From NCBI GenBank assembly GCA_905234625.1, contig CAJOIC010000008.1:1-37441 (forward strand): 37,441 nucleotides of DNA. The letters are read 5' to 3'. This DNA comes from an uncultured Oscillospiraceae bacterium. GTDB lineage: Bacteria; Bacillota; Clostridia; Oscillospirales; Oscillospiraceae. This document shows positions 22,816 through 35,782 of the stretch, one piece after another. The notes below the pieces were generated by a model. It had not been told where the DNA came from. It did not search any database and worked only from the letters and a program-made list of their open reading frames with translations. The first letter of the stretch is position 1. Each line of letters opens with the position of its first letter. The translations under genes and the position numbers were made by a program.

Positions 22816-24987
22816 ATGAAGAAGCTACTCAAACCCCTGGCCCTCGTCATGGCGCTGTGCTTCGTCCTGTCCATCGGGGCGTTCGCCAGCGGCGATCCCA
22901 GCGGCGCCCCCAGCGGCGGCTCCTTCGCCCAGGTGGACGATACGCACTGGGCGGGCGACACCCTGACCATCGAAGCCGTGGAGATCGCGGAGGAGTATCA
23001 GGATTACGTGGACGCCACCCAGTTCTGCAACATCGCCAGGATCGTCTATGACGGCGGCGAGATCGACGTGGACTACGCCAAGTACGCCGCGATCCTCACC
23101 GTGGACGGCGTCCAGGAGGATCTGTACAATGCCGCGGGCGAGACCTTCACCGGCGATGTGGTCGTCACCCTGGTGGAGAAGGCGGCCTCCACGAACCAGG
23201 GCAACTCCAAGTTCGGCGACGATGCCGGCAGCCTCATCGGCCCCTTCTCCTATATCGCCGCCGCCTACTTCGACGAGAACGGATACCGGGAGCAGAGCTC
23301 CGTCGTGGAGGCCCAGGACCCCGGCGCGGAGATCACCGATAACTCCGTTGCCGGCATGTACTACGTCTCCGACGGCGACTATATGTCCGCCGTCTACGCC
23401 AACGCCGGCGAGCTCACCGTCAAGGATTCCGTCTTCTCGGCCTACGGCCGCGGCGGCGACGATTTCTCCGGTCAGGGCGCGGCGGTCATCGCTGCGGGCG
23501 ACTCGAAGGTCACCGTGGACGGCTGCTTTTTCGTCTCTGAGGGCGCCCTCCGCTCCGCTATTTGGGCCGGGGCCAGCGCCGAGATGAACGTGGTGGATAC
23601 CGTGGTGCAGACCTACAACGACGAGGATCTGGTGCCTTACAGCCCGGACGACAACTTCGCCACCCCCATGATGCAGCAGGTCCCCTTTGCCCTGGGCCTC
23701 ACCGGCAACATCCGGGCCACCCTTGACTGCGGCCAGGCGGACATCACCTTCACCGACTCCCTCATCGCCTCCAACGGCTGGGCCGTCCTTTCCACCGACT
23801 CCGGCAGCGGCACCCTGGTGGCCACCGATACCACGGCGGTCCTGGGCTACATCAACTACGCTGACGCGGAGGACGCGGACGAGTATGACGAGACTGTCAC
23901 CGTGAACGGCGAGGACTATGTCATCTACTACGGCCGCGCGGGCGAGGATTCCGGCTACATCGCCTACTGCGACGGCTTCACCGACTACGCCTACGGCGGA
24001 CGCTGGTTCGCCCCCGACTATCTCGTCATCATCACCGGCGGCCAGGTCACCATCGGCGCCTCCGAGAAGGGCCGGTTCTACGGCTGGTCCGACCGCATCG
24101 GCTTCATGAGCCATCAGACGAACTCCAACACGCTGCTGGACATTTCCGAGTCCGACTTCGACGTGACGGACACCTTCCTTATGATCAAGTCCAAGGGCGG
24201 CAACGGCGAGACCATCAACCTCACCGACGTCAATGTGAACCTGACGGGCTCCAACCCCTGGGGCGGCAACCTCCTGGAGGTCATCGACTCCGACGATCTG
24301 GGCGGCGGCCCCGGCGCCACCACCTTCACCGTGCCCTATGGTACCTATGACGAGTACCTCGCCGCCGAAGGAAACGGCGACGGCGGCGTCACCACCCTGA
24401 ACATCACCGACTCCGAGCTCACCGGCAACGTCTATGACAGCGTCGGCAGCCAGACCGGCGCCCAGACCAAGTTCCGGAACGACAGCATCGCCGTGAACCT
24501 GGACGGCTCCGTCCTCACCGGCGCGGTCAGCTCCGCCTACGGCATCCACGCGGACGCGGACGGCACGGCCCTCCTGGGCACCATCACCGTGGACTCCTAT
24601 GGCCGCGAGGGTACCTATGACTACCTGGCCATCGGCCGCATCCTGAACTTCGCGGCGCCCACCGTGAACAACTCCGTCTCCCTGTCCCTTGCCGGCTCCA
24701 CCTGGAACGTCACCGGGCTGAGCTATCTCGCCTCCCTCACCGTGGACGGCGCCAGCACCGTGAACGGCGACGTTTACCAGAACGGCCAGAAGATCGACCT
24801 GAAGGCCGGGACCTATGAGAACGTGGTGGTCGTGCCCGCGGACGCCGACTACGCCGCCGCCGTGGCGGACGGCGTGGCCGCCATCGAGGCTGTCACCGCC
24901 GCCGGTATCGTGCCCGCCGACCGGGCCGAATTGGTGGCCAACGTGGACATGGGCGGCTCCGGCGAACCCTCCGGCGAGGCCTCCTGA
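22816..24987 (+). CDS. Long secreted beta-helix-like protein, paralog 1
   Basis: 723 residues from the ATG at 22816 (AAAGGAAG upstream); the frame is open further upstream but the signal peptide fixes this start (MKKLLKPLALVMALCFVL, cleavage at AFA|SGD). A Gly/Ser/Pro spacer follows, then a conserved block SFAQVDDTHWAGDTLTI. The body is built of short beta-rich turns with many Asp, Gly, Thr and Ser, as in right-handed parallel beta-helices; I cannot assign a named family. It ends in SGEPSGEAS. The protein is homologous to the one at 27371 over nearly its whole length (shared THWAGD, TFTGDVVVTLVEK, ATPMMQQ, SLIASNGWAVLSTDSG, RIGFMSH, YDEYLAA). Function unknown; probably surface or extracellular. 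Confidence 0.85.
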   Translation: MKKLLKPLALVMALCFVLSIGAFASGDPSGAPSGGSFAQVDDTHWAGDTLTIEAVEIAEEYQDYVDATQFCNIARIVYDGGEIDVDYAKYAAILTVDGVQEDLYNAAGETFTGDVVVTLVEKAASTNQGNSKFGDDAGSLIGPFSYIAAAYFDENGYREQSSVVEAQDPGAEITDNSVAGMYYVSDGDYMSAVYANAGELTVKDSVFSAYGRGGDDFSGQGAAVIAAGDSKVTVDGCFFVSEGALRSAIWAGASAEMNVVDTVVQTYNDEDLVPYSPDDNFATPMMQQVPFALGLTGNIRATLDCGQADITFTDSLIASNGWAVLSTDSGSGTLVATDTTAVLGYINYADAEDADEYDETVTVNGEDYVIYYGRAGEDSGYIAYCDGFTDYAYGGRWFAPDYLVIITGGQVTIGASEKGRFYGWSDRIGFMSHQTNSNTLLDISESDFDVTDTFLMIKSKGGNGETINLTDVNVNLTGSNPWGGNLLEVIDSDDLGGGPGATTFTVPYGTYDEYLAAEGNGDGGVTTLNITDSELTGNVYDSVGSQTGAQTKFRNDSIAVNLDGSVLTGAVSSAYGIHADADGTALLGTITVDSYGREGTYDYLAIGRILNFAAPTVNNSVSLSLAGSTWNVTGLSYLASLTVDGASTVNGDVYQNGQKIDLKAGTYENVVVVPADADYAAAVADGVAAIEAVTAAGIVPADRAELVANVDMGGSGEPSGEAS

Positions 24988-27370: not shown

Positions 27371-29965
27371 ATGAAAAGATCCGCAAGAATCCTTGCCGTG
27401 CTCCTGGCTCTGTGCATGGCGCTCTCCCTGAGCGCGTTCGCGTCGGGCGAGGCCAGCGGCAGCAGCTTCGCGCAGGTGGACGCCACCCACTGGGCCGGCG
27501 ATTCCGTCACCATCCGGAGCGTGGAGTATGCTCCTGAATTCACCGATCAGGGCTATGTTGACTCTACCCTGTTCACCAGCGTGTCCAAGATCGTCACCGA
27601 CGCCGGGGACATCGACGTGGACAACACCGTTTACACCCCGGTCCTGACCGTGGACGGCGTGCAGGTAGACCTTTACAACATCGCCGCGGCCGAGACCTTC
27701 ACCGGCGACGTGGTCGTCACCCTTGTGGAAAAAGGCGACTCCAACGCAAACCAGGGCGCTCCCTTCGGCGCGGACAAGGCCCAGTCCAGCTTCGGGCCCT
27801 TCTATTACACCGCCGCAGCCTACATCAAGGACGGCGCGTATGACGCCGCCAAGTCCGTGGAAGCCGCTCAGATCGAGGGCGCCGTGACCGATACCGAGGC
27901 AAACGGCCTCACGGTCGGCTCTGAGGGCGACTATTTCTCCGGCCTCTACATCGTGGATTCCGACTACACCGTGAATGACGCTGTCATGACGCTCACCGGC
28001 GCGGGCGGCGACGACTTCAACGGCTGGGGTGCGGGCATCGTTGTGCTAGGCAGCTCCAATGTCGGGATCAACAACAGCTTCATCCTGAGCCAGGGCGTTC
28101 TGCGCTCCGGTCTGTTCACCTCCGGCAGCGCCGTCACCACGGTGAAGGATTCCGTGATCATCGCCCTGAATGACGAGGACGCCGTCCCCTACGACACCGA
28201 GGACAACTATGCTACCCCGATGATGCAGCAGTGCCCCTTCGGCCTGGGCATCCAGGGCAATATCCGCGCCAGCCTCGCCTGCGGCGCGGGCCAGAACGTC
28301 TTTGAAAACTCCCTGATCGCCTCCAACGGCTGGGCTGTACTCTCCACCGACTCCGGACGCTCCGGCGCGGACGCCCTGATCTCCAACGCCTCCGTCGCGG
28401 TCGTCGGCTATGTCGTCGACGCGGACGACGATCGCGCCGACTTTACCTGTGAGGTGGGCGGCGATACCTACGGCGTTGCCGTGGGCCGCTACGGCGAGAC
28501 CTCCGGCTACATCGCCTACGCCGACGCCGGCGTGCTCGATTACGCTTACGGCTCCGCGTGGTACTCTCCCGATTATCTCGGCATCATCACCACCGGCACC
28601 ATCACCATGGCCGACGGCGGCTACGGCTGGTCCGGCCGCATCGGCTTCATGAGCCACTCCGGCGGCGGCAGCTCGGGCCACGGCACCCTGAACGTCTCCG
28701 ACTCCAGCTTCGACATCCAGGATGCCTTCGCCGTCACCCAGCTCTCCGGCACCTACTCCACCTCCACCACCCTGGACAACGTGGATATCTCCCTGGCCGG
28801 CAGCGGCGCGGACATCCTCTACATCCAGCTGAACTCCGACGATAACGCCGGCGGTCCGGGCAACACATCGAACACCCTGACCGATCTGACCTACGACGAG
28901 TACCTCGCCCAGAGTGCTCCCGCCTCCGGCGAGCCCAGCGAGAACTTCAGCGACCTGAACGTCTCCGACTCCGTCGTTCAGGGCAACATCTTTAACGCCG
29001 CCACCGACGACGGCGTGGGTCTGGTCGTAAATCTCGACAACGCCGAGATCGACGGCGCCATCTCCTCCGCCTGGACTTACCACGTGGACGCTGACGGCAG
29101 CGCCCTCGACAGCCCCGTCATCGACTGCGACTACTACACCGGCACCCGGGACGGCGCGAACGGCGTCTATGACTACACCATGTACCTCCGGGTGAACGCG
29201 GAGCCCGCTCCCACCGTGAACAACCCCGTCACCCTGAATATGGCGAACGGCTCCCGCTGGATGGTCACCGGCACGAACTACCTCGCCTCCCTCACCATCG
29301 ACGAGACCTCCTCCGTCCTGGGCATGGGCGTCACCATGACCGTGGACGGCGTGGAGACCGAGATCGCGCCGGGCACCTACACCGGTGAGATCGTCCTGTC
29401 CGCCGGCGATCCGCCTGCCCGTCCCGAGGGCGACGCGGAGATCAAGGCCCCCGTCATCGGCGAGGCCGCCCAGATCGAGGCCGCCTCCGCCGAGGCCGCG
29501 CCTGCCTTCGAGGCCACCGACACCTTTGAGCCCTTCAACGTGGCTGTGGACGACGGCATGGTCCTGCCCTTCTCCTCCGTGGAGCTGGCTGTCAGCGACA
29601 GCGCCGTCAGCATCTTCATCCCCGACACCCAGAAGCTCATCGAGTGCGCCATCGTGAACGGCGAGTGGATCATGGAGGGCTCCGACTTCGTGGACGACGC
29701 CATCATCGCCGCCGCCAAGGCCCTGTATGAGGGCGGCGCCGCCGCGCCCGCCTCCGGCGAGGCTTCCGGCAGCAGATGGGACGCCTGGATCGAGTATCTG
29801 AAGGCCTTCGTGGAGGACGGCAGCATCGACGATATCAAGGATATGGTCCTGTCCGAGCTGGACGCCGCCCGGGAGGAGGACTATCCCGGCATGCTGGACG
29901 GCACGGTGTTCGGCGTCTTCGCCTTCACCTATGACGCCACCCCCTACGAGGATTTCGTGGGCTGA
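27371..29965 (+). CDS. Long secreted beta-helix-like protein, paralog 2, with extra C-terminal domain
   Basis: 864 residues. The signal peptide (KRSARILAVLLALCMALSLS, cleavage at AFA|SGE) is followed by SGSSFAQVDATHWAGDSVTI, the same block as in paralog 1. The beta-helix-like body aligns with paralog 1 (TFTGDVVVTLVEK, ATPMMQQ, SLIASNGWAVLSTDSG, RIGFMSH, YLASLT). It then goes on for about 200 residues absent from paralog 1: an Ala/Glu-rich segment, a beta-rich part (VLPFSSVELAVSDSAVSIF), the linker PASGEASGS and a small helical tail (WDAWIEYLKAFVEDGSI, then DIKDMVLSELDAA). That tail resembles the mature part of the secreted protein at the window start. Function unknown; probably surface-exposed. 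Confidence 0.85.
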   Translation: MKRSARILAVLLALCMALSLSAFASGEASGSSFAQVDATHWAGDSVTIRSVEYAPEFTDQGYVDSTLFTSVSKIVTDAGDIDVDNTVYTPVLTVDGVQVDLYNIAAAETFTGDVVVTLVEKGDSNANQGAPFGADKAQSSFGPFYYTAAAYIKDGAYDAAKSVEAAQIEGAVTDTEANGLTVGSEGDYFSGLYIVDSDYTVNDAVMTLTGAGGDDFNGWGAGIVVLGSSNVGINNSFILSQGVLRSGLFTSGSAVTTVKDSVIIALNDEDAVPYDTEDNYATPMMQQCPFGLGIQGNIRASLACGAGQNVFENSLIASNGWAVLSTDSGRSGADALISNASVAVVGYVVDADDDRADFTCEVGGDTYGVAVGRYGETSGYIAYADAGVLDYAYGSAWYSPDYLGIITTGTITMADGGYGWSGRIGFMSHSGGGSSGHGTLNVSDSSFDIQDAFAVTQLSGTYSTSTTLDNVDISLAGSGADILYIQLNSDDNAGGPGNTSNTLTDLTYDEYLAQSAPASGEPSENFSDLNVSDSVVQGNIFNAATDDGVGLVVNLDNAEIDGAISSAWTYHVDADGSALDSPVIDCDYYTGTRDGANGVYDYTMYLRVNAEPAPTVNNPVTLNMANGSRWMVTGTNYLASLTIDETSSVLGMGVTMTVDGVETEIAPGTYTGEIVLSAGDPPARPEGDAEIKAPVIGEAAQIEAASAEAAPAFEATDTFEPFNVAVDDGMVLPFSSVELAVSDSAVSIFIPDTQKLIECAIVNGEWIMEGSDFVDDAIIAAAKALYEGGAAAPASGEASGSRWDAWIEYLKAFVEDGSIDDIKDMVLSELDAAREEDYPGMLDGTVFGVFAFTYDATPYEDFVG

Positions 29966-32097: not shown

Positions 32098-32883
32098 ATG
32101 AACATTCCCAGCTATGAACTGACCGGAAAGGTCGCTATCATCACCGGCTCCACCCGCGGCATCGGCCGCGCCATCGCCGTCACCATGGGCAAGCTCGGCG
32201 CGAAGGTCGTCATCACCGGCCGCAAGCAGCCCGCCTGCGATCAGGCTGTCGAGGAGCTCGCCGCCGACGGCATCGAGGCTCTGGGCGTCGCCTGCGAGGT
32301 GACGAAGGCCGAGGACCGCGCCGCCCTCATCCAGAAGACCGTGGAGAAGTTCGGCCGGGTCGATATCCTGGTGAACAACGCCGGTCTCGGCGGTCAGCCC
32401 AAGAAGATGATCGACATGGACGAGCAGTACTTCGACAACTACGTCGACGCTGACCTCAAGGGCCTGTACTTCATGAGCCAGCTGGCCGCCCAGCAGATGA
32501 AGGCCCAGGGCCGCGAGGGGGCCGAGAATCCCTACCGTATCATCAACCTCGCCTCCGCCGCCGGTATCAAGGCGCCCATCGGCGATACCGTGTACGGCTC
32601 CTGCAAGGCCGCCGTCGCCCACCTGACCCGCATCATGGCCAACGAGCTGGCCCGCTTCGGCATCCTCTGCAACTCCGTCGCTCCCGGTTATGTCCTCACC
32701 GATATGACCAAGGACGTCATGGCCGACGAGAAGAACGTCGCCGCCGTCACCCGCATGATCTCCGTCCGCCGCTATGCTCAGCCCGAGGAGATCGCCTCCG
32801 TTATCGCGTTCCTGGCCTCCGACGCGGCCGGATATGTCACCGGCGTCCTGATCCCTGTGGACGGCGGCATGACGATCAATTAA
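32098..32883 (+). CDS. SDR-family NAD(P)-dependent oxidoreductase 1
   Basis: 261 residues, classical short-chain dehydrogenase size. The cofactor motif TGSTRGIG is at 16-23, NNAG lies near 90, and the catalytic Ser153, Tyr166 and Lys170 are in place (INLASAAG, VYGSCKAA). The residue after the second strand is Arg (ITGRKQ), which with the Thr-Arg in the Gly-rich motif suggests NADP use, though this is not certain. GTGAGGTG precedes the ATG. It begins an acyl-CoA cluster with a 4-hydroxybutyryl-CoA dehydratase-like enzyme, so a role in reducing or oxidising a hydroxy- or keto-acid (for example succinate semialdehyde/4-hydroxybutyrate) is possible but not shown. Codon use is strongly biased to C-ending codons, a mark of high expression. 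Confidence 0.88.
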   Translation: MNIPSYELTGKVAIITGSTRGIGRAIAVTMGKLGAKVVITGRKQPACDQAVEELAADGIEALGVACEVTKAEDRAALIQKTVEKFGRVDILVNNAGLGGQPKKMIDMDEQYFDNYVDADLKGLYFMSQLAAQQMKAQGREGAENPYRIINLASAAGIKAPIGDTVYGSCKAAVAHLTRIMANELARFGILCNSVAPGYVLTDMTKDVMADEKNVAAVTRMISVRRYAQPEEIASVIAFLASDAAGYVTGVLIPVDGGMTIN

Positions 32884-33021
32884 AACTGCGAAATTCATTT
32901 CGCAGTTTTAGCACTCGCGCTTATCGCAGCGGGTTTGTCGCCCGCTTTGGTCGGCGCGAGAGGCTCGCCCAGGCTCGCCTTATGGTGTTTTTGCTGCGGC
33001 GAAGCCATACCAAAAACGATT
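32882..33021 (+). repeat. Structured intergenic element, copy A
   Basis: About 140 nt with successive pairings: a 12-bp hairpin (32882-32893 with 32898-32909), an outer CTCGCGC/GCGCGAG helix (32914-32920 with 32954-32960) enclosing an AGCGGG/CCCGCT hairpin (32928-32933 with 32941-32946), a direct repeat GGCTCGCC, and a last helix GTTTTTG/CAAAAAC (32987-32993 with 33011-33017). An inverted copy lies at 35648-35782. The first hairpin alone could act as a terminator or attenuator. Confidence 0.85.
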
Positions 33022-33048
33022 CCCCGTCTGTAAAGGAGGAAGATCCCG

Positions 33049-34677
33049 ATGCCCGAGAAATACATTGGTACATATGAGCAGTACAAGGCCCGGCTGCTCG
33101 CCATGAAGCCGAATGTCTACCTGCACGGCAAGAAGGTGGACCGCTCGAACGGCAAGGAGGGCGCCGAGCGTGACCTGGCCGACTGGATCGTGGGCGGCAC
33201 CTACGTCATGAAGCAGTGCTACGACACCGCGAACGATCCCCGTTATGAGGACGTGTGCGTTGCCGAGTCAAACATCCCCGGCATGGAGGGAGCCCTCATC
33301 AACCGCTCCACCAACATCCATCACAGCCGTGAGGATCTGCTGAAGAAGCAGCTCATGACCCGCCTGATCTGCCACCGCGTTGGCGGCTGCATGCAGCGCT
33401 GTATGGGCTCCGATGCCCTGAACGCCCTGTATTCCGTGACGTTCGACTGCGACGAGGCCTGCGGCACCGAGTATCATCAGCGCCTGCTCAAGTACATCGC
33501 CTACTGCCAGAAAAACGACCTCATCTGCAACTGTGCCCAGACCGACGTCAAGGGTTCGAGAAACCCCAAGTACAAGCGCGCTCACATGCAGCCCGACCCC
33601 GACCAGTTCTTCCATGTCGTTGAGAAGGATGTGGACGGCGTTGGCCTGGATGGAAAGCCCTGCAAGGGCATCATCGTCCGCGGCGCGAAGATCTGCAACT
33701 CCTGCGCCCCCTATGTGGATGAGATCATCGCCCTGCCGACCAAGTTCATGAGCCCGGACGATTCCGACTACGCCGTCGCCTTCGCCCTGCCCGCCGACTG
33801 GCCCGGCATCAAGCTCATGGCTCTGCCCGGACAGCACCACAAGAGAAAGCATCTCGAGGCTCCCTGGGCCAAGATCGGCGATGTGGAGTCCCTGACCGTG
33901 TTCGACGACGTGTTCGTGCCCTATGAGCGCGTGTTCATGTGCGGCCGCGACAACGAGGGCGTCTGCCGCTACGCCGGCTACCTCGCCCTGATGTTCGCCC
34001 ACTATCATCGCCACTCCTACACCGGCTGCAAGACCGCCGTGTCCGAGGTCATTGCCTCCCAGGCCGCTCTCGTCGCCGATGTGAACGACATCGCGAAGGA
34101 GTCCCACGTCCGCTCCAAGCTCTGCGACATCATCCAGACCGCCGAGCTCGTGTTCGCCGCCGGTCAGCAGTCCGCTCACCGCGCCGTGGAGTTCCCCTCC
34201 GGTCAGTGGGTCCCCGACGAGATCCTCACGAACGCCGGACGCCGTCTTGCCGGTCACAACATCTATCACGAGTACGAGATCCTCGCCGACCTCTGCGGCG
34301 GCGTGTGCGCTTCCCTTCCCACCGAGGAGAACTTCTTCATGGAAGAGGACAATGTCGGCGCTCTGTGCAACAAGTACATCGTCCGCAACCCGGCCTACTC
34401 CGCCGAGGATACCCATCGCGTCATGCGCATGATGGAAGACAAGCTCTGCGACGCCTTCGAGGGCGCACAGGCCGTGGCCGGCGTCCATGGCGGCGGCTCC
34501 CCCCTGATGGAGGAGATCACCCTCATGAGCCGCTACGATCTCGAGGAGCTCAAGAAGATCGCCAAGTACCTCGCCGGCCTGCCCGGCTATGAGGAGTGCC
34601 CGCGCTACGAGCGCGCCACCAACACGCCGCGCGCCATGCTGGCCCGCTTCGACGCTCTCAAGGCGAAGAAGGCGTAA
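33049..34677 (+). CDS. 4-hydroxybutyryl-CoA dehydratase-like flavin/[4Fe-4S] enzyme
   Basis: 542 residues; AbfD of Clostridium aminobutyricum has 490. The family (HpaB fold with FAD and a [4Fe-4S] cluster) dehydrates 4-hydroxybutyryl-CoA to crotonyl-CoA. All four cluster ligands are present: Cys114 and Cys118 (GGCMQRCMGSDALN), and His320 and Cys327 in HRHSYTGCK, where Tyr324 and Lys328 match AbfD Tyr296 and Lys300. Thr165 and Glu280 match AbfD Thr190 and Glu257. The AbfD base Glu455, which precedes SMHGAGSP, seems replaced by Ala477 (AVAGVHGGGSP). A strong AAAGGAGG precedes the ATG. Genes for SDR, crotonase and 3-hydroxyacyl-CoA dehydrogenase flank it. The reaction may therefore differ from the classical one. 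Confidence 0.88.
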   Translation: MPEKYIGTYEQYKARLLAMKPNVYLHGKKVDRSNGKEGAERDLADWIVGGTYVMKQCYDTANDPRYEDVCVAESNIPGMEGALINRSTNIHHSREDLLKKQLMTRLICHRVGGCMQRCMGSDALNALYSVTFDCDEACGTEYHQRLLKYIAYCQKNDLICNCAQTDVKGSRNPKYKRAHMQPDPDQFFHVVEKDVDGVGLDGKPCKGIIVRGAKICNSCAPYVDEIIALPTKFMSPDDSDYAVAFALPADWPGIKLMALPGQHHKRKHLEAPWAKIGDVESLTVFDDVFVPYERVFMCGRDNEGVCRYAGYLALMFAHYHRHSYTGCKTAVSEVIASQAALVADVNDIAKESHVRSKLCDIIQTAELVFAAGQQSAHRAVEFPSGQWVPDEILTNAGRRLAGHNIYHEYEILADLCGGVCASLPTEENFFMEEDNVGALCNKYIVRNPAYSAEDTHRVMRMMEDKLCDAFEGAQAVAGVHGGGSPLMEEITLMSRYDLEELKKIAKYLAGLPGYEECPRYERATNTPRAMLARFDALKAKKA

Positions 34678-34692
34678 TCAAAAACACATTCT

Positions 34693-34723
34693 CAAAGGCG
34701 GGGATTCATCCCCGCCCTTGAGG
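34693..34723 (+). terminator. Hairpin after the dehydratase gene
   Basis: A GC-rich 8-bp stem (GGCGGGGA with TCCCCGCC) with CTCAA/TTGAG extensions, followed by GCTTGTTTTATAAG. It may terminate or attenuate transcription before the second SDR. Confidence 0.7.
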
Positions 34724-34786
34724 CTTGTTTTATAAGAGTTTGACTCTCAGACATTACTAAGAAGCATTAAAAGGAGAATGGCATCC

Positions 34787-35644
34787 ATGGCACACATGAA
34801 CCGCAAAATGGGCATCCCGTCCTTTGACCTGACCGGCAAGACAGCCATCATCACCGGCGGCACCCAGGGTCTGGGCTTCGGCATGGCCTGCGCGCTGGCC
34901 GCTTACGGCTGCAACGTGGTCATCACCGCCCGTACCGCCGCCAAGGTGGAGGACGCTGTGGCCGACCTGAACGAGAACTACTGCAAGGGCGGACGGGCCC
35001 TGGGCATCCCCGCCGACTCCTCTCAGATGGAGCAGGTGCAGATGGTCATCGACGAGACCGTCAAGGAGTTCGGCGAGCTGAACATCCTCATCAACAACGC
35101 TGGTATCTCCGGTCCCACCGCGCTGATCGTGGAGACCCGCGAGGGCCGTCCCGAGTACACCGTCTCCGACTTTGAGAAGGTCATCGCCACGAACCTGACC
35201 GGCACGTTCATGTTCTGCCAGGCCGCGGCCCGTCAGATGATCAAGCAGAACGCTACCAATGGCAAGAAGGGCGGCCGCATCATCATCACCGCCTCCGTCG
35301 GCGGCCTCATCGGCGGCAAGGGCGTCGTGGCCTACGGCGCGTCCAAGGCTGCCTGCCTGAGCCTGGCCCGCACCATGGCCAACAACTTCGGCCGTGAGAA
35401 CATCACCTGCAACTGCATCTGCCCGGGCTATGTGGTCACCCCGCTGAATGAGAAGTTCTTCATCGACGAGAACGGCAACCAGACCGACTACTACAAGCAG
35501 CAGTCCAAGGCTACCTCCGTCCGCCGCCTCGGCACCATCGAGGAGATCTCCGGTCCCGTCCTGGCTATGTGCTCCGATTCCTTCAGCTACATGACCGGCA
35601 CCTATATCCTCTGCGACGGCGGGCAAAGTATACCTGCTGAGTAA
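34787..35644 (+). CDS. SDR-family NAD(P)-dependent oxidoreductase 2
   Basis: 285 residues from the ATG at 34787; another ATG at 34778 is only one base after AAGGAG, so the second, with ten bases of spacing, is preferred. TGGTQGLG is at 23-30, NNAG near 98, and the catalytic residues are Ser170, Tyr183 and Lys187 (ITASVGG, VAYGASKAA). The protein shares about the same start (IPSFDLTGKTAIITGGTQG) as SDR 1 (IPSYELTGKVAIITGSTRG), so the two are probably ancient paralogs, but SDR 2 has insertions of about 20 residues. It lies between the dehydratase and copy B of the structured element. Substrate unknown; it may act on a hydroxyacid linked to the acyl-CoA pathway. Confidence 0.87.
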   Translation: MAHMNRKMGIPSFDLTGKTAIITGGTQGLGFGMACALAAYGCNVVITARTAAKVEDAVADLNENYCKGGRALGIPADSSQMEQVQMVIDETVKEFGELNILINNAGISGPTALIVETREGRPEYTVSDFEKVIATNLTGTFMFCQAAARQMIKQNATNGKKGGRIIITASVGGLIGGKGVVAYGASKAACLSLARTMANNFGRENITCNCICPGYVVTPLNEKFFIDENGNQTDYYKQQSKATSVRRLGTIEEISGPVLAMCSDSFSYMTGTYILCDGGQSIPAE

Positions 35645-35647
35645 ATG

Positions 35648-35782
35648 AATCGTTTTTGAGGCAGCTTTGCCGCCTCAAAAACGCCCTGAGGCGAGCTTGG
35701 CGAGCCCTCGCGCCGACCAAAGCGGGCCTTGGCCCGCTGCGATAAGCGCGAGTCTCAAATTGCGAAACCTGTTTCGCAATTT
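35648..35782 (-). repeat. Structured intergenic element, copy B (inverted relative to copy A)
   Basis: Read on the minus strand it repeats copy A in the same order: a 12-bp hairpin (35757-35768 with 35771-35782), a CTCGCGC/GCGCGAG helix (35707-35713 with 35746-35752) around an AGCGGGCC/GGCCCGCT hairpin (35721-35728 with 35731-35738), and a 12-bp helix with CGTTTTTGAGGC/GCCTCAAAAACG (35651-35662 with 35672-35683). Blocks such as ACTCGCGCTTATCGCAGCGG are identical to copy A, whereas hairpin arms differ while keeping pairing. Confidence 0.85.

Follow-up and report, generated by a model that had tools for sequence, protein, structure and literature searches.

The window, a stretch of 37,441 nucleotides from an uncultured Oscillospiraceae bacterium, carries two intergenic copies, A and B, of a real and widespread mobile repeat of the MITE kind, which is undescribed in the sources that we searched. 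Two features of this repeat are the most unusual: its ends vary around a core that stays constant, and terminator-like hairpins are duplicated in full. We consider it probable, at roughly 70%, that A and B are MITE-like hairpin-chain elements, composed of palindromes around the conserved core and moved by structure-targeting transposases of the IS1182 type.

Copies A and B and the spread of the repeat

Copy A (positions 32882 to 33021, forward strand; 137.5 bits with R1, a covariance model built from 27 copies out of eight genomes) is a compact form of four hairpins followed by GATT. It is flanked by the genes for SDR 1 and the dehydratase, with its first two bases falling within the SDR 1 stop codon. 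Folding and the four-hairpin structure derived from the 27 copies place hairpin 1, AAAACTGCGAAAT-TC-ATTTCGCAGTTTT, at 32882 to 32909; the core hairpin 2, which holds the conserved internal strands ATCGC and TTGGTCG, at 32914 to 32960; hairpin 3, GGCTCGC...GCTCGCC, at 32962 to 32979; and hairpin 4, GTTTTTG...CAAAAAC, at 32987 to 33017, all on the forward strand, the inner portion of hairpin 4 being partly unpaired in the register used. Copy B (35648 to 35782, reverse strand; 149.2 bits with R1) lies 2.6 kb away in inverted orientation, flanked by the SDR 2 gene and the gene for an enoyl-CoA hydratase. Its hairpin 1 (35757 to 35782, again from folding and the four-hairpin structure), core hairpin 2 (35707 to 35752), hairpin 3 (35690 to 35706) and hairpin 4 (35652 to 35682) are all on the reverse strand. 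The preliminary description had reported such an opposite-orientation pair, with shared sequence blocks and with hairpin arms that differ and yet stay paired. The pair was recovered by blastn within its own genome (80% identity, E 1.2e-25), the named blocks are present in both copies, and the differing arms do retain their pairing.

The same blastn search gave five strong copies in this genome (G000), namely A, B, C56:12958-13068, C80:1940-2072 and C16:9465-9569; a sixth row came from hairpin 1 of A, a palindrome, aligning to itself on the opposite strand. A search with R1 added one weak, rearranged relative on contig C18 (E 4.8e-5). Of the 35 genomes of the window's genus, two, G000 and G204, gave strong R1 matches; G204 had 22 matches in all, weak ones included. 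Among the other 33 congeners, 26 gave no match, and the only match in each of the remaining 7 was weak (E about 1e-3 to 1e-5); two of these weak matches, L035 and L037, have a different core within the same frame. As a side observation, L035, L037 and the C18 relative (L051, G000:C18:1546-1676) keep hairpins 1 and 4 around a core of the CTGCTGCAGCGCA...ACGTTTGC...GAGAAGTG type, and L035 and L051, both weak R1 matches in the window's genus, also keep a fifth hairpin.

The repeat extends well beyond the genus. With the best 8 candidates per genome scored, 61 of 400 genomes and 25 of 106 genera of the family matched R1 at E<=0.001, many by single and weak matches, while twenty chosen carriers held 7 to 98 matches each when 150 candidates were scored. 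Cores were diverged in four weaker carriers of this set that were inspected, G020, G070, G147 and G236 (loci L087, L085, L090 and L086). A scan of the order at E<=1e-5 yielded matches in 26 of 394 genomes, 17 of 169 genera and 8 families, and copies were inspected in five of these eight families. The core stands out clearly in f1, f7 and f13 and in some of f15; in f19 and a different f15 genome, one strand motif (e.g., CGCGCTTATCGC) or less is kept, with the partner rearranged. A core pattern occurred in at least 118 stretches of GTDB contigs, and the 80 matches listed are metagenome-assembled genomes with Oscillospiraceae, Ruminococcaceae, Clostridiales, Clostridia or Eubacteriales in their titles, many of which name a rumen or gut sample. 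The core gave no blastn match to phage and plasmid records, and one exact core pattern gave none to viral contigs.

Copies tend to resemble others from their own genome most closely. Using the 107 of 114 rows that were distinct and at least 125 nt long, 64 of 98 copies had their nearest neighbour in their own genome, against a mean of 7.8 and a maximum of 19 with shuffled labels. This is thus a dispersed repeat in genome-specific subfamilies, patchy among close relatives. The preliminary description had recognised no known family, and our searches agree: across 4227 Rfam families there were 0 matches at gathering score, a lax search returned matches only far below gathering scores, and no description of this repeat was found in the open-licence literature searched.

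Pairing, covariation and the choice between DNA and RNA

The proposed conservation of pairing in the face of sequence change is well borne out. Over 27 copies from eight genomes, pairing holds in 95.3% of 1229 cells of the four-hairpin structure, and both sides have changed in 26 of its 47 pairs. Sliding the partner strand lowers pairing to 36-45%, a comparison in which the structure is favoured by having been drawn partly from the tested copies. The covariation score of 0.241 compares with a shuffled mean of 0.089 and with at most 0.059 for slid partner strands, and none of 500 shuffles, a control that leaves kinship among the copies in place, reached the real value on any of five measures. 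RNAalifold by itself predicted 38 pairs, 19 of them compensated. As for the internal strand TTATCGC, which had been described as invariant and unpaired, ATCGC is indeed unchanged in 27 of 27 copies but the leading TT is not: the first T is an A once, and the second position is T in 16, G in 7 and C in 4 copies. The internal letters that never vary in this set are ATCGC and TTGGTCG.

These results dispose of one alternative, a local duplication with coincidental pairing, for which the closeness and inverted orientation of A and B might speak and which the preliminary description would have preferred had related genomes held no further copies and had significant covariation been lacking. Such copies were found: three more strong ones in the same genome and matches in 61 of 400 genomes of the family. 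Together with covariation in excess of all 500 shuffles, they refute this explanation, to which we give practically no weight.

A further question is whether the pairing is kept in RNA. One could regard the repeat as a multi-copy structured RNA, either a small RNA or an intercistronic mRNA element, that is under selection as a transcript and whose dispersal is secondary. The 26 compensated pairs would be expected of such a molecule, as would the constancy of ATCGC and TTGGTCG in all 27 copies and the retention of the CGCGCTTATCGC motif in some diverged copies of other families. Moreover, in the folding set (93 of 114 copies, distinct and with at least 40 pairs formed) the plus strand had the more stable fold in 83 of 93 copies as RNA and in 61 of 93 as DNA; part of this stability comes from three near-invariant G.U pairs in the core. 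Hairpin 1 of copy A also has the A-then-T order of a terminator. On the other hand, hairpin 4 has a T run ahead of its stem and an A run behind it in 27 of 27 copies, which is the reverse of a terminator, and presence among close relatives is patchy. Variable stem pairs contain G.U 82 times, A.C 70 times and other mismatches 84 times, compared with 17, 5 and 1 in a small control of 18 tRNAs from the same loci (Fisher p 0.04), and the near equality of G.U and A.C is unlike what selection on one RNA strand would lead us to expect. Neighbouring genes are likewise oriented in a mixed fashion, with 19, 15, 14 and 7 cases in four classes; this tally comes from a crude ORF caller and covers the 55 classable copies of 111, a further 47 being covered by predicted ORFs, many of them probably spurious, and 9 unclassed.

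Given the G.U and A.C counts and the mixed gene orientations, we favour pairing that is kept at the DNA level, and the selection on RNA structure suggested in the preliminary description appears distinctly unlikely. The three near-invariant G.U pairs nevertheless leave room for a strand-specific role, and together with the plus-strand preference in RNA folding they fit a role of one strand better than one of the double-stranded form. Stem pairing might then be kept mainly as palindromic DNA, or through re-copying by template switching, rather than for the sake of an RNA product. This carries a general caution, namely that strong covariation in a multicopy element does not on its own count as evidence for an RNA.

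Insertion sites, ends and an IS1182-family transposase

Orthologous sites in relatives are consistent with mobility. Orthologues of the dehydratase gene beside A were located in congeners, and the spacer between SDR 1 and the dehydratase is without the element in 7 of 7 relatives read (G205, G163, G200, G204, G201, G203 and G206). The spacer between SDR 2 and the enoyl-CoA hydratase is similarly without it in 8 of 8 (G205, G163, G200, G206, G095, G203, G204 and G201). Exact insertion points are not visible because the spacers are too diverged to align, and repeated loss of the element is, in formal terms, an alternative account of the empty spacers. By eye, a plain stem-loop is present at the A spacer in G205 and G203 and at the B spacer in G163, G200, G095, G203 and G201; these stem-loops would fit stem-loop replacement, without proving it. 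A different hairpin repeat, AATAACGGGTCTTTTTCCGC...CCCTCGTTATT, was seen in the B-orthologous spacer once in G206 (L365) and about three times in tandem, the last one incomplete, in G204 (L346).

An indication of how such elements may move comes from another genus, that of G330 and G415, where the element around the same core is longer: it has one more hairpin on the left, a fifth hairpin and, on the right, the tail CTTTGTCTACAGTCTGAA. This tail recurs, inverted and imperfect, as the left end, TTGAGCGTGTCGACAAAG, which also pairs as a hairpin with an inverted copy of itself and which many copies in G330 and G415 lack. Allowing up to 3 mismatches, the right-end pattern has 62 matches in G330 and 40 in G415 (0 and 2 for the reversed pattern). 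With up to 2 mismatches it occurs in 42 of 61 genomes of the genus, 21 of which have five or more matches, the reversed-pattern control giving 1 to 3 matches in 9 of the 61. The same ends, without the core, bound other small elements, which are around 165 and 222 bp long. The fetched loci contained 26 two-ended elements, 10 of them core-bearing (9 by script test plus L300, which is element L156 on the other strand); the latter measure 217-245 bp, apart from one composite of 394 bp.

Many of these elements sit between copies of a hairpin. A direct repeat scoring >=16 was present in the flanks of 12 of the 26 two-ended elements but in none of 650 mismatched flank pairs, which scored 15 at most, and it was found with the core (6 of 10; five by script test plus L300) as well as without it (6 of 16); 14 of the 26 fell below the threshold. 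The duplicated repeats are hairpins, identical over up to 28 nt on either side, and look like intrinsic terminators. In some cases, for example at L303, L319 and L336, the flanking hairpins have common arms and different loops.

A candidate enzyme is encoded in the same genus. The transposase domain PF05598 was present in 22 of 62 of its genomes, and the partial protein at L423, used as a query, found matches in 31 of 102 genomes, with identity >=80% in 8. Insertion sequence (IS) copies from these searches begin with TTCAGACTGTAGACAAAG or a similar left end, and the transposase starts 92-95 bp inward. Contigs end inside the IS at L420, L423 and L424, which may be why it is rarely seen whole. 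One complete copy, L441 (genome G484, of the same genus as G330), is about 1.64 kb long and retains both ends, which depart from the pattern by 1 and 2 mismatches. It contains an intact ORF of 507 aa that matches the IS1182 transposase model NF033551 with 444.9 bits (cut-off 270) as well as PF05598 and PF13751. L443 is a second two-ended copy, with its transposase match split. The autonomous IS was not found in G330, nor PF13751 in G415. Core-bearing forms in G330 and G415 thus have terminal inverted repeats in common with an autonomous IS, albeit with imperfect left ends.

The IS itself also adjoins hairpins. All 8 left ends tested, which belong to closely related copies and include L445 with an end of 4 mismatches, abut a hairpin with a stem of 8 to 14, whereas 67 of 3000 random positions had a stem of at least 6. 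At L441 and at L443, however, the hairpin on the left side differs from that on the right, so that duplication alone does not explain everything. Two distant IS1182 copies behave comparably: L448 has a different hairpin at each end, and at L447 the left-end hairpin lies within tolerance, the right-end one slightly further off, and the two differ. These observations link the elements of the G330 genus strongly to IS1182-type transposition and, as judged from sequence, such an enzyme would be their probable mobiliser. We envisage that an IS1182-type transposase might recognise the hairpin-forming ends and join them to the feet of a target stem-loop, after which repair would duplicate this stem-loop or, as published for IS1272, remove it. 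The mobile alternative in the preliminary description, a REP- or MITE-like element, is hence favoured not only by the multiple copies, patchiness, genome-specific subfamilies and element-free orthologous sites, but also by ends held in common with an IS1182-family IS in another genus.

How far this extends to the compact copies, including A and B, is less clear-cut. None of 64 copies outside G330 and G415 had a flank duplication scoring >=13, although 18 of the 64, from G204, G322 and G156, have long forms that extend past the right flank tested; among the 46 compact copies outside all five genomes, 0 scored >=13 and the maximum was 11. The five copies of the window's genome scored 5 to 7, with A and B at 6 and 6. 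Terminal inverted repeats were not recognised in compact copies by search or by eye, the right-end tail was not seen at A or B, and PF13751 was not found in the window's genome, which is 82% complete. Hairpins with a stem of at least 7 were mildly enriched, lying near 7 left and 9 right ends of the 64 copies (control 1.4), several of them being the element's own fifth hairpin or a tandem copy in L007. By eye, three G322 loci (L142, L144 and L145) have similar hairpins on both sides, and G204 copies have other ends, of the GTAACTGTTCAG type. A and B agree with MITEs in the wide sense in being short, non-coding, present in several copies and lacking from corresponding sites in relatives, and depart from them in showing no target site duplication; from MITEs of an IS1182-family IS they differ by the lack of IS-shared terminal inverted repeats. 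Since neither inverted repeats nor duplications were seen at compact copies, a transposase of the same kind can only be inferred for A and B, from homology of core and layout.

This leaves a place for a competing account, in which the compact element is mobile DNA moved by an unrelated enzyme (e.g., of the Y1/RAYT type or of a new kind) and its core was captured by IS1182-type ends in the G330 genus only. Besides the ends of the compact copies just described and the GTAACTGTTCAG-type ends in G204, the swapping of cores between frames would suit it. However, compact hairpin 1 resembles the palindromic left ends of the IS1182 type, down to a TTCA-like start (by eye), and no gene family recurs as a possible mobiliser, since no cluster among 488 predicted ORFs lay beside more than five loci. 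We judge this account to be rather unlikely, and continue to prefer movement by IS1182-type transposases. Of the 10 carriers searched for PF13751, one gave a match; G000, G204, G330 and G415 gave none. The IS of the sole positive carrier, G174 (L339), was considered as a mobiliser and rejected, as it shows no related inverted repeat.

Our results also allow a broader and more tentative reading: a modular superfamily of hairpin chains across the order, in which the core (CGCGC-TTATCGC ... TTGGTCGG-GCGCG) is passed among elements with different ends and rival cores, and IS1182-type insertion takes place at the feet of terminators with duplication of the stem-loop. We hold it to be less likely than not. 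If true, it would make the core a functional part, binding a host factor or the transposase on folded single-stranded DNA, and the elements would remodel gene ends throughout the genome.

Several loci show other arrangements of interiors and ends. At L121, L123, L159, L170 and L180 (in G415 and G330), the core is interrupted by a small repeat, AGAACAACGC...GCATTGTTCTTCC or close variants, and in some of them a rival core (GAATGAG...ATATGGAG or of the ATGGAG type) occupies the same slot. At L386, L378, L379 and L389 (G330 genus), the same terminal repeat bounds an insert of the GCGGGAATCCG...GGTTCGCAATGAC type, and one set of ends thereby carries several unrelated interiors.

Relation to known repeats

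The closest parallel is with IS1272, of the IS1182 family, and TnSha1 of staphylococci. IS1272 is described as acting on stem-loops, which it removes with no duplication left behind (Wan et al. 2017, PMC5678879; PMC4923244), and both elements insert at inverted repeats and terminator hairpins with no consensus in primary sequence (PMC5678879; PMC4923244). In one branch of the model in PMC5678879, the ends are joined at the 5' feet and the entire stem-loop is thereby duplicated. The likeness lies in the transposase family, which is that of the IS with matching ends. The difference is that the staphylococcal elements delete or replace a stem-loop and leave no duplication, whereas here the same stem-loop flanks 12 of 26 small two-ended elements on both sides; the window copies, for their part, are non-coding, with neither deletion nor duplication of a stem-loop seen. 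A DDE transposase that recognises stem-loops as its targets was proposed in the IS1272 work, and the small elements of the G330 genus look like natural products of the duplication branch of this model. Because both such products and a likely enzyme have been identified, the duplication model becomes directly testable.

Prokaryotic MITEs, as reviewed in PMC10969869, are likewise short, non-coding and multicopy, and the elements of the other genus have ends in common with an IS. Our repeat differs in that the core is kept while the ends change (in four families, and in a fifth on one strand) and in consisting of four to six hairpins in a chain; in some other genomes the element extends further at one end or at both. 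MITEs are typically AT-rich according to the same review, whereas copies here have 48-67% GC, and the text of the review that was searched does not mention IS1182.

Short structured intergenic repeats of other hosts offer a looser comparison, made by description rather than alignment, with BOX and RUP of pneumococcus, ERIC of enterobacteria and bcr1 of Bacillus cereus. BOX also consists of modular hairpins. Duplication of a terminator hairpin is not known from BOX, RUP, ERIC or bcr1. The present data add a repeat family that is widespread among Oscillospiraceae and their relatives and has no Rfam entry.

The window also contains direct repeats between 22997-24761 and 27546-29316, about 4.55 kb apart and with 74-90% identity over 30-133 nt, which are probably two paralogous coding regions.
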